A program made the translations under genes and the position numbers. Below the pieces are notes generated by a model. The model was not told the origin of the DNA, searched no databases, and saw only the letters and a list, made by a program, of their open reading frames with translations. Shown piece by piece: positions 21,476-62,607 of a stretch of DNA of 62,994 nucleotides. Position 1 is the stretch's first letter; each line of letters begins with the position of its first letter. The stretch comes from Calothrix sp. CSU_2_0 (GTDB taxonomy: Bacteria > Cyanobacteriota > Cyanobacteriia > Cyanobacteriales > Nostocaceae), in assembly GCA_012034595.1 (NCBI GenBank), contig JAAUPE010000021.1, positions 1-62,994 on the forward strand, read 5' to 3'.

Positions 21476-21787
21476 AATTGGGCACTTTTTTACTTGGAAT
21501 ATTCCAAGTGATATTGTTGCTGCTGACATACACCATTTAATTGTCACCGTGTTGGGTAACAAATTTCTCGAAAGTAAGTAGTTTAGGTGGGATGTAGGTC
21601 ATATTTGTCTCCTGTAATTACATAGAAATCAATTCGTATTCTTTTGTAAAAAGATTCACAGGTAGAACTCATCGCAAATCAGTTGTAACTTTTGCTTGCA
21701 ATTAGATTCCGACTGCTGGCAAACATTCTAAACTTATACAGAATTAATCCAAAATTAATCCAAAATTTTATTCGGCTAATCTTGGGA

Positions 21788-23449
21788 ATGACTATAAATC
21801 TAAAACCCTTCGATAACCAACTTACAGCAACAAAGCCATTAACAAGCGCTTCTACGATTCCAGGAAGTCGCTACAACCCTGTTAATTATCGTCGTATTCT
21901 CTGCATTTTTCCTAAATATACCCCTTCCTTCGGGACATTCCACCATGCTTATCCACTGACGGGGAAGGTTAAGGCTTTTATGCCACCACAGGGTATTTTG
22001 GTAATAGCTGCTTATTTGCCGCAAGCATGGGATGTACGCTTTGTTGACGAAAATATTAAACCCGCAACCATTCGTGATTACCGTTGGGCAGATGTAGTCA
22101 TTGTTAGTGGAATGCATATCCAGCGATCGCAAATAAATCAAATTAATGAATTGGCGCACCGTCAAGGTAAAATCACGATTGTTGGTGGTCCTTCGGTTTC
22201 CGGTTGTCCTGAATATTACCCCGATTTTGATATTTTGAGTTTGGGGGAATTGGGAGATGCAACCGATAAAATTATCAAATATTTAGACCAAAATAATCAA
22301 CGTCCAGCCCAACAAATTCGCTTTGAAACTCAAGAGCGTCTGCCATTAACTGAGTTTCCCACACCTGCATATCATTTACTCAATCTCAATCAATATTTCC
22401 TGGCAAATATCCAATTTTCGAGTGGTTGTCCCTACAATTGCGAGTTTTGCGATATACCCGAACTCTACGGGAATACACCACGAATGAAAACCCCGCAACA
22501 GGTTATTAATGAACTTGATACCATGCTCAAATACGGGAATATTGGAGCAGTGTATTTTGTTGATGATAACTTTGTGGGGAATCGTCGAGCAGCGATGGAA
22601 TTATTACCCCATCTCATCGACTGGCAAAAGCGCAATGGTTATCCGATTCAATTTGCTTGCGAAGCGACTTTGAATTTAGCACAGAGTCCAAAATTATTGG
22701 AAATGATGCGGGAAGCTTACTTTTGCACCGTATTTTGTGGAATTGAAACCCCAGAAACCAACGCACTCCAAGCAATTTCCAAAACCCATAATTTAAGTAT
22801 GCCCATACTTGATGCCGTAAAAACCCTAAATAGTTACGGAATGGAAGTAGTTTCTGGGATAATAATGGGATTAGATACAGATGATGAAAAAACCTGCGAT
22901 CGCATTCTGCAATTCATTGAATTATCCCAGATTCCCCTATTAACAATAAATCTCCTTCATGCTTTACCAAGAACCCCTTTATGGCGAAGATTAGAAAACG
23001 AAAAACGACTGGTATTTGATGAAAGTCGCGATTCTAATGTAGAATTCTTACTTCCTTACAAGCAAGTTTTGGAAATGTGGCGACGTTGCATTACTATAGC
23101 TTACCAACCGGAATTTTTATATCAACGTTTTGCCTATCAAATCGAAAATACTTATCCTCACCGCATCAAAGTTCCCAGTAGTCCTGCGAGAGTTTCTAAA
23201 GCAAATATTATCAAAGGATTGACGTATTTAACCAATATTTTGGTCAGGGTTGGTATTTTTAGTAATTACCGGGGGATGTTTTGGAAAATGGCAAAACCTG
23301 CTTTTAAAAAAGGTGATATCGAAGCTTTAATTCATGTCGGTTTAGTTGGACATCACCTAATTAGGTTTGCGACAGAATGTGGTATGGGTCAAGAATCTGC
23401 CTCATTTTACTCGCAAAAGATTCGTCATTTAGTGGAGAATAAAATATAG
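21788..23449 (+). CDS. hpnP: B12-binding radical SAM protein, probable hopanoid C-2 methylase (HpnP-like)
   Basis: A 553-residue cobalamin-dependent radical SAM enzyme. The N-terminal B12-binding Rossmann domain has PSFGTFHHAYPLTGKVKAF, VRFVDENIKPAT and VVIVSGMHIQRSQIN. The radical SAM cluster motif CPYNCEFC lies near residue 214, and a DUF4070-type C-terminus follows (YGMEVVSGIIMGLDTDD, INLLHALPRTPLW). I recall the FGTFHHAYPL and QFSSGCPYNCEFCDIP blocks from HpnP, which methylates hopanoids at C-2. hpnJ and hpnI downstream support a hopanoid role. A TTG start at 21692 would add 32 basic, hydrophobic residues, and I prefer the ATG. A closely related radical SAM methylase is the alternative. 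Confidence 0.65.
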   Translation: MTINLKPFDNQLTATKPLTSASTIPGSRYNPVNYRRILCIFPKYTPSFGTFHHAYPLTGKVKAFMPPQGILVIAAYLPQAWDVRFVDENIKPATIRDYRWADVVIVSGMHIQRSQINQINELAHRQGKITIVGGPSVSGCPEYYPDFDILSLGELGDATDKIIKYLDQNNQRPAQQIRFETQERLPLTEFPTPAYHLLNLNQYFLANIQFSSGCPYNCEFCDIPELYGNTPRMKTPQQVINELDTMLKYGNIGAVYFVDDNFVGNRRAAMELLPHLIDWQKRNGYPIQFACEATLNLAQSPKLLEMMREAYFCTVFCGIETPETNALQAISKTHNLSMPILDAVKTLNSYGMEVVSGIIMGLDTDDEKTCDRILQFIELSQIPLLTINLLHALPRTPLWRRLENEKRLVFDESRDSNVEFLLPYKQVLEMWRRCITIAYQPEFLYQRFAYQIENTYPHRIKVPSSPARVSKANIIKGLTYLTNILVRVGIFSNYRGMFWKMAKPAFKKGDIEALIHVGLVGHHLIRFATECGMGQESASFYSQKIRHLVENKI

Positions 23450-27310: not shown

Positions 27311-27434
27311 TTGGTTCTAATGAGAATTATTTATTAGAAGAAACGGGGAAAGTTTGGTGAAAATCCAGCGCTGTCCCGCAGCTGTAATGAGACAAAAAAC
27401 TTGTCTCTAAGCCAGAATGCCCGTCAATAACCAC
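27311..27434 (+). promoter_or_regulatory. Cobalamin riboswitch
   Basis: Conserved elements appear in order: CGGGGAAAGTTTGGTGAAAA near 27344, ATCC, GCTGTCCCGCAGCTGTAA at about 27371-27388 (the B12-box-associated core), a variable hairpin GAGACAAAAAACTTGTCTC, then AAGCCAGAATGCCCGTC. TTGGTT at the start can pair with AACCA at the end to form P1. It ends 27 bp before the receptor ATG, so translational control is likely. A 91-codon frame (27085-27360) runs into it and is probably fortuitous. Confidence 0.92.
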
Positions 27435-27460
27435 AAAAAACGATTATCTGCGAGGTACAG

Positions 27461-29634
27461 ATGACAAATATCACATCTAATTCCCGATGGGGAATAAAGT
27501 TTGCTGTCTCTAATTTGACTGCAATCTTAGGCATATTGTCGGGAATTAATAGCACTACAGCAGTAGAAGCTCCCCAAACAGACGTTAAAATTCCAAAATC
27601 TATTTCCGAAATTGAAATTACAGAAACATCTGCTTCATCTCTGCAACCAACACATCAGGAAATATCCCAAAACACGACACCAAAAAGTGAAGCTGAACCC
27701 GATATTGAACTGGATGTCACCGAGAAACTATTAAATCAACCAGTTTTTTCACCGTTTCGTCGTGAGGGAACAGTCAAAGACTCGACTCGTCCGATTTATG
27801 TGATTACGGGTGAAGAAATGGAAGCGCAGGGTGCTAGAAGCGTTAGAGAAGCACTTAAATTTCTTCCCGGTGTACTACCAGACGGAACTGTTGGAACTGA
27901 ACCCCATGCGTTGAGCAATCAATTTATTCGTGGTTCTAATGGTGAACAGGTACTAATTTTACTTGATGGCAGACCAATCAATAACTTAGGTAGCGGTCGT
28001 TTTGACCTGTCGGAATTTACCACTAATAATATTGAGCGAGTGGAAGTGCTACCTGGTGGTGGTTCTACTCTATATGGTTCCGATGCGATCGGTGGAGTTA
28101 TCAACATCATTACCCGTCGTCCAACAAAAGACAAAATTACCACTGATGCAAAGATAGATTTTGGTTCCTATGGACTCAACCAGCAGAGTATTCAATCAAG
28201 TGGAAAAACGGGAAATATTGGTTGGGTGGTAGGTTACAACCGCACTCAAGGAAAATATAATTATCCTTTCTCAATTCCCGAAGTTAACTTCAGGGGAGTG
28301 CGGAAAAATAATGATGTTCTCTACAATAACTTCAACGTTAAATTAGAGGCAGATTTAGATAAACGCAACACCCTAACTCTATCTTCCTTATACTTAGGAA
28401 AAGAGCAAGGAGTACCAGGAGGAGTTCCCATACTCGTACCACAATTTGGTCAAGGTTCTGGTAATGTTTTGACTGATAGAAACCGGAAATATACAGACCA
28501 AGTTTTAAGTGATTTAACCTGGAATTCCAAGCTGGGAAAAGGGAATGATTCCCTATTAACAGCGAGGTTTTACACCGATTTTATCAATACTCGCTTTGAC
28601 TCTAACTCAATCACTATTCCACCTCAATTCAACAGAAGATTTGAGACAAAACAAAGTTCTTATGGTTTTCAAGGAACTCATAGCTGGCAATTCAGTAAAA
28701 ATCAAAGCGTAGTTTATGGCTTTGATTATCGGAATGTGAACGTTGCCAGTAGTGCGGTTAGATTTACTACGGGCGTTAAAACCCCTAACTATGATGATAG
28801 TATCGGACAAGGTGCTATTTTTGCCAGATATGAAATAGGCTTGATTCCTAGCATTAAGTTAAATTTAGGTTTGCGTCAAGATTTTAATACTTTAGCAAAT
28901 GCTTCAGCAACTTCACCATCGGTTGGAGCAAAATGGGATATTAGCAACTCTACAACTATACGCGCAAACTATATCAGAAACTTCCGTGTCCCAACCGTTG
29001 CTAATTTATTTAATCTTAACCCGACTAATATTGGTAATCCAAACCTCAAACCAGAAAAAGGAGATAGTTTTGATATTGGCATAGACCAAAAATTAGGCGA
29101 TATTGGTTTGTTGCGCTTAACTTTTTCCAAAATAACATATCTGACGCAATTGCCTTTAAATCTATTCGTCCAGCTATTAATGGAGTCACTGGAACTTGGG
29201 AAAATATTGGCTTAGTCGAAACTTCAGGAATTGAAGCTGCACTAAATTTACAAATTGCTAAAAATATCTATGCTTTTGTAAATTATACCGCAAATGACCC
29301 ACGCATCAAAAAAAGTTCTAACCCCGCAGAAATTGACAAGGAATTGCGATTTGCAGGTGCTGATAAATTAAACTTGGGTGTTTCCTATGAAAATCCTCAA
29401 GGTTGGTATTTCGGATTATTAATGAATTCTCTCGGTAGATATCCAACAAATAACACCAATACCGAGTCATTAGCGGGTTATACAACTTTTGATGCTAAAA
29501 CTCGAATTCCCCTAAGTCAAAAGTTTACACTTAATGCTAGTGTGGATAATATCTTTAATCAAAGATATCAATTATTTGCTGGATTTCCAGATGCAGGTAG
29601 AGTGTTCCAAATTGGCTTGAGTGCGAATTTCTAA
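27461..29634 (+). CDS. btuB: TonB-dependent cobalamin-type outer-membrane receptor (BtuB-like), frameshifted
   Basis: An outer-membrane receptor directly behind a cobalamin riboswitch. It has a signal/N-terminal region, then a plug domain (about 110-220: RPIYVITGEEMEAQGARSVR, FIRGSNGEQVLILLDGRP, ERVEVLPGGGSTLYGSDAIG, GGVINIITRRP) and a long beta-barrel. The first frame stops at 29215 after an unrelated tail. The true barrel end (SDAIAFKSIRPAING..., ending VFQIGLSANF at 29634) is in the next frame. The shift falls at the T5 run at about 29125-29129, where one more T restores a ~724-residue protein. It is a natural pseudogene or a consensus error. Confidence 0.85.
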
Positions 29635-33144: not shown

Positions 33145-34889
33145 TTATTCTCCCCCCTCACTAGTAGGAGCGATCGCAGGTGTGGATTCTCGACTACGAC
33201 GCAAAGCATTCCGTAACCGACTACTGCTATCTGATGACTGACTAGGTTGATTTATAACCCGTCTTCTTCTGCGAATGGGGGTTTGTTCGCTTCCTGATGT
33301 TCTCACATCGGCTGTTACTTCCCTTCTTCTCTGTCTTGGTGTTTCATTTCTAGAACTATTTTCTACATTGCGGTTTTTTTCAGAATTTCCTACCCGTCGA
33401 GGTGTTGTTTCTTCCGAATTTACCGCACTAGTCTGGGTTTGTCGTCGTAATCTACGACTTAATCGGCTACTTCTTGACTCTTCGGAACGCGAAGACGGTG
33501 TTTCCTGAGATGTTTGAGTATTTCTTTGTCTCCTTGGTGTTGTTTGAGAGACTGTATCATTACTTGCGCTGTCCAATCGTCGTTTGCGACGGGGAGTTTC
33601 CTGGGAAGAATTTTCGGAAGAAGATGCTGCTATTTGTCGCTGTTTCTCTTGTTCTGCTCGCTGCTGTTGCCGTTCGCGAACTTGACGATTGCGACGGGAA
33701 CCCTCTATGGAATACTCTGTCGCTATTTTTACTCCTTCTCTTCCGACTTCAGAAGGTTTTAACTTCCATCCCTGTGCTTGCCTAATATGTTCTTCATCTA
33801 AATCGCGATCGCACTCGAATTAACAACGCGCACTTTAGTCACATTTCCATCTTTGTCCGTATCAACTGCTACTTCGACTCTTCCTTCCGAACGCCGTCTT
33901 CTAGCGCTTTCGGAATACTTAACTTTACAATCGCGACAAGCTGCACGACCATCTAAGGAACCGTCAGGACTGCCGCTACGTCCTGGTTTTTGAATTTCTG
34001 TTGGTGGGTTTGGTTGGGTTGGTGCTGTGGATATTTCCCGTTGACGACGTTCTGAGGTTCCGGTTCTATTTCCACTTCCGGTATCATTCCCCGTACCTGG
34101 ATTATTTCCATTCCCGGTACCACTATTCCCTGTACCAGTGCCATTTCCGAAGGCAAGGGGGGAATTACCACCACCTGCTGGTTGATTGGACTCGGAAGAA
34201 CCATTGCCTGTGTTTCCGGTGTTGGCTTCACTGGCTCTGTTATCTCGAATACTGCCGAGTATATTTCTTAAATTTTCACTATTTTCTTGCGTATTCGTAG
34301 ATGTTTTTATCGGTGCGGTATTTGTTGCTACTGGTGTTGCCGGAGTTTGGGAATCTTGATTTGGTGTATTTTCTGTGGTTGTAGTTTTAATGGGTGTTTG
34401 AGATTCGACTTTTGGTTGTGGTTTTTGAGAAACTACGGTATCTTCTTTTACTGGTTGAGGTTTGGAGTTATCAATGAATTTTTGTATTGGGGTAGTTACA
34501 GATTTTTCGATTGGTTTTTCGACCTGGATTGGTTGTTGGGGAATTGGAACATTGACAGGATTGCGAGCAACAGAACTACCACCAGAGTTTCCCCCCGATG
34601 AGGTTATAATTTCTCCACCATTGTTACCAAGGGCAAGTTTTTCCTTTTCTGGCTTTTCTTGCTTCTTTTCTTCTGGTGTTAAAGGGGTTTGCTTCACTTC
34701 TGGTTCTACAAAAGTCAATTCGATTGGTTCTTCTTCCATCTCCGGTACTCTAGCCAGAAGATTGCCCACACCAGATGCTAATACGGCTACGTGCAACACT
34801 AAAGAAGCGATCGTGCTTCCTGTCAGAAACGCCTTGAGTGCTTTAAATTCTTTTTCTCGCTGCTCGATCGCAATACTGGAGAAGCTCAT
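33145..34889 (-). CDS. tonB: TonB energy transducer with Arg-rich C-terminal tail, frameshifted
   Basis: The N-terminus has a membrane anchor (KALKAFLTGSTIASLVLHVAVLASG, about 17-41). A Pro/Thr/Gln/Asn/Gly-rich periplasmic spacer (about 50-300) follows. The TonB C-terminal box begins GRVEVAVDTDKDGNVTKVRVVNSS, then this frame stops at 33798. In the adjacent frame the box continues DLDEEHIRQAQGWKLKPSEVG and KIATEYSIEGSRR. That frame runs on through a highly Arg/Ser/Gln-rich tail of about 170 residues to 33145. The break is at the HIP1 octamer 33805-33812; one extra G restores the frame. Divergent from exbB-exbD. Confidence 0.8.
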
Positions 34890-35174
34890 AAATTTAATTG
34901 ATACTTATTATGGCTAATTCTAACAGATTAAAGTAACTAGACGAAAATGTAAAGCAATAAAAATCACTAAGTTTCACAATATCTATCTCAGGTATCATGC
35001 TATTATAGTGGTTATAATTTAATGATTTCGGCAAACTTAGATTGTTTCAGTACTCAGTAATTTATTTCATTAAGTGGTGACAATTACTTGACTTGCATTT
35101 TAGTTTGTTCTACTGTTTATTGAAAAAGCATATCATTTATTTTGTAACAGTTTTCGACGATTTAGGGGTAACAG

Positions 35175-60580: not shown

Positions 60581-62607
60581 TTATGGTTGGGGACGTAATG
60601 CTGTTAACTTCGCGATCGCATCGTTATAACTTGCTTCTTCTTCTTTGTCTTGGAAGAATTGTGCAGCTTTTTCAAAATCTTCAATTGCATCGGGAATTTT
60701 GCCTAAGTCTGTACGAACTAGTCCGCGATTGTAGTAAGCTAGGGCGTAGTTGGATTCGAGTTCAATGGCTTTGGTGTAGTCGTTCACTGCATCTTGATAA
60801 AGCCCTTTTTCTAAGTAGGCATTACCACGATAATTATATGCTGATGGTTCTTTTGGTTCGAGTTGAATGGCTTTTTGGAAATCTTTGATAGCACCTTCAA
60901 CATCATTATTTCTCAAGCGAAATTTTCCCCAATGTATGTATGTTTCTGGGAATTTATCATCGAGTAAGAATGCTTGATTGTAATCAGTGTAAGCTTTTTG
61001 AGTATCTCCAGATTCGGTGTAGATATCACCTCGCATTAAGTAGGCTTTAATATGTTTAGAATCTAGTTCAATTGTTTTGCTAAAGTCTTTTTTTGCGGAT
61101 TGCTTTTGGTTGAGTTGGAAGTTTGCTAAACCGCGTTCGTAATAGAATTCTGGATTATCTGATTTTAATGCGATCGCTTCATTAAAATCTACGATCGCTT
61201 CGAGTTTTTTGCCTTGTTTGCGGAAGATTTTTGCCCGTTCGAGATAGGCAGCAGCATAGTCGGAGTTGATTGCGATCGCTTGATTGAAATCTTCGATTGC
61301 ACCTTGCCTTTCTTTGATTTGAGAACGGGCAAGCCCTCTGGCATAATAAGTATCAGCATTTCTGGCATCGATGGTAATGGCTTGGCTAAAGTCGGCTATG
61401 GCTCCATTATAATTATTGAGAGTATATAAGGTAAAACCACGGTCGTAATAGGCATTGGCATCTTTGGGATTTAGCCTAATGGCTTCACTGGAATCAGATT
61501 GAGATTTTTCATATTTTTTTTGGCGATAAAAAGCATCTCCACGCTGGTTATATGCTTCGGCATAATCGGGATTAATTTTGATTGCTTGAGTAAAACTTTG
61601 AATTGCACCTTGATAGTTTTCTTGTTGGTATTTATCTGTACCTTGTTCGTAAAATATTTTAGCGCGATCGATATCTCTTTGTGGAGCTAAAAACCAATTA
61701 AGTATTCCTAATAAAAGAAAACTAATGATTCCTGAGAATAAGAAGATACTGACTTTTTTTTGAAGCTGAAATCCCAGAAAAAATGCTTATCTTGTCGCGA
61801 TTGAATATCCTTTAAGACTTCACTTGCAGATTGATAGCGATGACGATAATCGAGACGCACCATTTTATTAATGATTCTCGCTAATTTACTGCTAACTTTT
61901 TGGTTATGATGTTGCCAAATTATTTCCCCAGTCAGTAAATGCTTGGGACTATTTCTTCCCGATATATCCTGTGCTGACTTACCTGTTAATGCTGCGATCG
62001 CAATTATTCCTAAAGCATAAATATCGCTATTAAATTGGGTTTTTCCATGTAATTGTTCTATTGGCATATATTCACTTCTGCCAATGTTATGGATAGCTTT
62101 TCTAATGCTACCAAAGTCAACTAATACTAACTTTCCATCTGGATGACTCTGAATAATATTTGTTGGTTTCAGATTTTGATGAATGACTCCATGATGATGG
62201 ACAAATGCCAGGATTTTGAGTATCTCTGACACAATGCTGATGACTGCTTCTTCCTGGAGGATTTTACCTTTGCCAATTTCTAAACTTAGTGGATTACCGG
62301 GAATATATTCTTGAACCACATAAAAATCATGATTTTCTTCCCAATAAGTAAATAATTCCTGAATTTGTTCTTGTCTTTGTGCAAGCTGTTGTAAAGTCTC
62401 AACTTCACTCCCTAATAAAATTCTTGCATGATTTAATCCTTGCTCATTCTGACTGCGACAAACTAGTTTTTTCACCACATAATATAGTGAATTAGAGTCT
62501 GTAACCTTGGCTGCAAGATAGCTCTCACAGACTGCATTTGCACTCAGTAGCTGAAGAATTTGGTAGCGTGCATTTAACAGTTGAGACATCAGCAAATTTA
62601 TTTTCAT
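60581..62607 (-). CDS. Ser/Thr kinase-transmembrane-TPR protein interrupted by an A8 frameshift site
   Basis: Frame 1 (62607-61708, 299 aa) is a kinase: an ATP lobe without a clear Gly-rich loop, VVQEYIPGNPL, VIHQNLKPTNII (Asn replaces the catalytic Asp of HRD), VDFGSIRKA (DFG present) and YMPIEQLHG. It then reads DFSFKKK and stops soon after in an unrelated tail. In the -1 frame the same spot continues VSIFLFSGIISFLLLGILNW (membrane helix) and at least eight TPR repeats to 60581, all without a start codon for about 240 codons. A -1 shift at A_AAA_AAG (61753-61759) would give about 675 residues. The HRD-to-HQN change suggests a pseudokinase. Confidence 0.85.
61753..61761 (-). promoter_or_regulatory. 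Candidate -1 slippery heptamer A_AAA_AAG
   Basis: On the coding strand the kinase frame reads TTC AAA AAA AAG TCA. The A_AAA_AAG heptamer is identical to the dnaX-type slippery site and in the correct register to shift the ribosome into the membrane-helix/TPR frame. I see no strong downstream hairpin. A lost A in an A9 run would give the same sequence. Confidence 0.5.

Follow-up and report, generated by a model that had tools for sequence, protein, structure and literature searches.

A cyanobacterial gene of what would be an ordinary type, with a kinase domain, a membrane helix (TM) and TPR repeats in a single frame in relatives, appears to be split in this assembly because a short T run lacks one base; this T run lies 7 nt upstream of eight consecutive A's (A8), and the missing base is most likely a base-calling or assembly error. 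We infer the error itself, which we consider probable for this draft, from the in-frame relatives, the position of the gap, selection on both halves of the gene and the other frame breaks in the assembly; we favour it over a young, real mutation, which ranks second.

In the window (the whole 62,994-nt stretch of DNA analysed), the kinase ORF spans positions 61708-62607 of the minus strand (299 aa; as a protein-kinase domain ORF, family PF00069, it is listed at 61711-62607), and its C-terminal end reads FSFKKK-SVSSYSQESLVFFY, with the stop 14 codons past FKKK at the end of an unrelated tail. The conserved start of the kinase is probably at 62589, matching the start of a 669-aa relative. Beyond the A run (61754-61761, minus strand), the −1 frame reads VSIFLFSGIISFLLLGILNWFLAPQ and continues into TPR repeats; this downstream frame (60584-61786, minus strand) carries a membrane helix, placed by eye at about 61753-61685, followed by the repeats, and is homologous to the intact 669-aa relative from about residue 262. 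The first ATG, GTG or TTG codon of the TM/TPR frame is at 61036, 239 codons past the A run, in line with the approximately 240 start-free codons noted in the sequence-only reading, whose description of the kinase ORF with its 14-codon tail, of the A run, and of an open −1 frame with helix and TPRs was confirmed throughout. The same holds for the perfect A_AAA_AAG heptamer, which lies at 61753-61759 (minus strand) in kinase-frame phase. The two frames had also been said to meet exactly at the A run. A8 does lie in the zone where both are open, but this zone extends over 76 nt (61786-61711, minus strand) and allows other crossing points; thus, the sequence alone leaves the point of crossing unfixed and does not force it to the A run.

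Kinase, helix and TPR repeats are encoded in a single open frame in all 22 relatives read (13 loci, L010-L022, and nine named ones, L030-L038, the latter judged by their lengths, residues 1-330 and the presence of an in-frame TPR motif), and the out-of-frame arrangement, the conservation of which had been raised as a question, is kept in none of them. The relatives thus show the plain in-frame fusion that the sequence-only reading had named as refuting its proposal. This count omits L023-L028, which are other kinase types, L039, a weak match, and the weaker DNA matches beyond L010-L022; L029 and L010 are one contig and were counted once. In L020, the frame is uninterrupted, yet there are fewer TPR repeats than in the other loci of its group. 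A DNA search covered 60 genomes, of which 54 gave some match; the closest relative was Calothrix elsteri CCALA 953, of the same genus, with 90% identical DNA, one ORF of 669 codons and a match of 1222 bases against 1221 in the window. A second genome of the same genus (G002) had no full-length match at E 1e-60 and matched in the TPR part only, at 40%, and in a search of 104 plasmid records every best match was below 60% identity.

The kinase part in the window matches PF00069, and the intact relative matches PF00069 together with TPR families, so that kinase domain and TPR repeats occur in one protein in the relative whereas the window has the two halves in two frames; a search of solved structures returned protein-kinase relatives. 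Both hallmarks of an active Ser/Thr kinase that were looked for, the HRD Asp and the glycine-rich loop, are absent from the window kinase, which has HQN at the HRD position (the catalytic Asp replaced by Asn, HQNLKPTN in place of HRDxKPxN) and ANAVC at the glycine-rich loop. Among the 23 sequences comprising the window and its 22 relatives, the HRD Asp is absent in 13 and the DFG Asp in 6, and the kinase tree requires at least three changes of HRD state; catalytic residues have been lost repeatedly in this lineage. A published survey gives each of the two residues as present in 97.2% of proteins, with 17 proteins without catalytic parts excluded, and tabulates TPR kinases in several cyanobacteria (PMC2176072). 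Judging from the motifs, the HQN domain in the window is probably weak or inactive, many members probably carry a pseudokinase or a domain of weak activity, and the kinase-TPR lineage is possibly a widespread pseudokinase scaffold. The intact protein would comprise a cytoplasmic kinase-like domain, a single helix anchor and a TPR binding platform.

When aligned with Calothrix elsteri, the window has one base fewer, and the gap falls at the T run 61769-61771 (minus strand), which has three T's in the window and four in the relative. In a base-by-base scan of gap positions, placement at the T run gave 159 matches out of 191, whereas sites inside the A run gave 152-153. Under a simple model that assumes 88% identity, the T run was favoured over the best site in or adjoining the A run, which had 154 matches, by a log10 likelihood ratio of 6.7. 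This placement depends on a single close relative, the region being a variable linker that differs too much in the others. Two further alignments of the window with Calothrix elsteri gave the same gap position. Where the window has A8, the closest relative has five A's only; most likely, A8 arose through substitutions in the lineage of the window, or was lost in that of the relative. Read in this manner, A8 and its A_AAA_AAG would be lineage-specific sequence beside the break and not its cause.

Comparison of the window with Calothrix elsteri gave dN/dS values of 0.21 for the kinase (272 codons) and 0.17 for the helix-TPR part (390 codons), and no stops were found in the TPR frame over these 390 codons. 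In the kinase tree, the end branch of the window is short (0.026, compared with 0.11 for the relative). Both halves are, by their dN/dS values, under purifying selection; pseudogene decay was considered and rejected, with no sign of it in either the substitution pattern or the branch length. Given that neither half has decayed, the split is very recent, bypassed or not real.

Frame breaks were identified in 6 of the 57 genes compared between this genome and Calothrix elsteri (32 in the window and 25 from three other 20-kb stretches), an excess of isolated breaks over the close relative, in which none was found among 33 non-redundant ORFs (one flag, from a tandem paralogue) or among 83 ORF matches including antisense (three flags, two antisense and one paralogue). 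The set excludes three short or partial genes out of a list of 28 and one 105-aa ORF in the window, and includes one tandem pair entered as two. An indel was not taken as a break if it lay at the end of a stop-to-stop ORF (most such indels preceded the start codon) or if another close by compensated for it, and flags from tandem paralogues or antisense ORFs were left uncounted. In the window, a TonB-dependent receptor gene (27434-29631, plus strand) is split by a single base missing, relative to Calothrix elsteri, in a T run near 29122, and a TonB-like gene (33148-34904, minus strand) by a single missing base, with the gap at about 33812, next to the palindrome GCGATCGC. Elsewhere, a CHASE2-kinase gene (L070:12357-14733) has two single-base breaks, one of them adjoining GCGATCGC, a split gene at L068:8384-11032 has two mutually cancelling breaks about 340 nt apart, and another at L068:11252-13989 has a break without clean placement; the two L068 genes align at just 75-77% identity, which makes their orthology less sure. 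Of the seven breaks with clean placement, two touch the GCGATCGC palindrome, which may hint at base-calling trouble there.

All seven cleanly placed single-base breaks lie inside genes, with a base missing from this genome in six and an extra base in one. Counting all coding sequence, there were 13 clean single-base differences (8 missing, 5 extra); 6 of these, 2 with a base missing and 4 with an extra base, were at gene edges. Single-base differences in noncoding sequence were symmetric (30 missing, 30 extra), and their direction was therefore uninformative as a test of error; a general bias of the assembly towards base loss is not evident from the coding counts with edges included (8 vs. 5) or from the noncoding ones. 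The 57 genes showed no interior nonsense codons; the alignments contained six stops, four of them within 10 residues of an alignment end and two in a match, beyond the frame break of L068:8384-11032. The window and the three further stretches contain no N letters. The single-base breaks are isolated, are seen in only one of the two genomes and come with neither nonsense codons nor decay, a pattern that resembles indel errors more than gene loss. Two other features of the window were recorded. Its end, which is the contig end (62750-62994), holds several near-copies of a unit somewhat shorter than 100 bp, as judged by eye; similar DNA recurs elsewhere in this genome, on C301 and C230, and the assembly may have broken at this repeat. 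An ORF of 586 codons at 21689-23446 (plus strand) matches the Calothrix elsteri stretches compared over only about a third of its length, which may reflect an insertion or rearrangement in either genome.

Several observations count against an error. The T run is short (3 vs. 4), and errors would be expected more often in longer runs; A_AAA_AAG in slippery phase is expected by chance only 0.002 times per 76-nt zone, although the case was picked from the whole window; and two of the six broken genes are those aligned at 75-77% identity, one with cancelling breaks. There is a smaller but appreciable chance that the frameshift is a real, young mutation, leaving a short kinase form, with the TPR half lost or made at a low level through slippage of RNA polymerase or ribosomes on A8. 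In favour of this, the assembly as it stands does contain the break, and downstream of it, before the new stop is reached, comes an A8 in the appropriate phase; a laboratory experiment is reported to have shown that frameshifts can be bypassed at repeats 3-8 bases long, 8A among them (PMC3812077). Against it, the TPR half is free of decay, and 6 of 57 genes in this assembly have similar breaks without interior nonsense codons. A more specific variant, in which a real deletion is tolerated because some transcripts or ribosomes regain the TPR frame at A8 and its A_AAA_AAG, yielding mainly the short soluble pseudokinase plus a small amount of the membrane-bound TPR form, would amount to a bypass recently acquired in a cyanobacterium and appears improbable.

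Loss of a base from the A run itself is still harder to sustain. The sequence-only reading had offered the loss of one A as an alternative to recoding; a single lost base indeed accounts for the frames, but alignment to the closest relative places it in the T run, outside the A run. Although A8 is a plausible slippage site, a gap placed there forces mismatches over TTTCAGC, a stretch that a gap in the T run leaves matched to the relative, and costs 6-7 matches; a break within the A run was rejected on this placement.

Programmed frameshifting in this gene is unlikely, and a dnaX-type −1 ribosomal shift giving two functional forms, as the sequence-only reading had proposed, is the least probable of the explanations considered. 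In its favour are the A_AAA_AAG in slippery phase and, as a possible Shine-Dalgarno-like stimulator, a weak GGGA 12 nt upstream of the heptamer (61775-61772, by eye). Against it, no shift is needed in any of the 22 relatives, the break maps upstream of the slippery site, and the 100 nt past the A run, where a stimulatory structure had been suggested, fold no better than shuffled sequences (z −0.67; 50 of 200 shuffles as stable). In E. coli, the high shiftiness of A_AAA_AAG is tied, in the account given in PMC5009743, to a sole tRNA-Lys. Here, by contrast, decoding of AAG by tRNA-Lys(UUU) alone does not apply: 30 tRNA loci, read out of 39 matches, include two tRNA-Lys genes with CUU and one with UUU. 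Across 37,419 nt of coding sequence, A_AAA_AAG in slippery phase occurs once, at this site, and any heptamer of the form X_XXY_YYZ is expected 0.20 times per 76-nt zone. A8 as a repeated device was also rejected, A8 runs being scarcer in the window than in dinucleotide shuffles (12 matches vs. 30.9 expected).

The case guards against inferring recoding from a single draft: the perfect dnaX-type heptamer is adjacent to the break, yet comparison with one close relative showed the break to lie outside it. The 6 split genes among the 57 compared are a flag on this assembly. If the deletion is real, the locus would offer a clean test of how a recent frameshift is tolerated.

Among known systems, E. 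coli dnaX (PMC5009743) has the same A_AAA_AAG in phase, whereas here the heptamer lacks downstream structure and conservation, tRNA-Lys(CUU) is present, and a shift would give the longer product. In Citrobacter rodentium tssM1, for which transcriptional slippage at A11 is described (PMC4256274), an A run likewise shortly precedes a premature stop; here the run is A8, not A11, and the break maps outside it. In domain order, the gene resembles the cbSTKII kinases with TPR of PMC2176072, in which a kinase domain is likewise followed by TPR repeats; here, Asn replaces the catalytic Asp of HRD, and the assembly has a broken frame. The favoured reading, an error in the draft, has its counterpart in the indel errors that fragment genes in draft assemblies (PMC8011154, PMC12007338): those reports concern long-read data, and the sequencing method here may differ, but in both settings genes are split that homologues keep whole.
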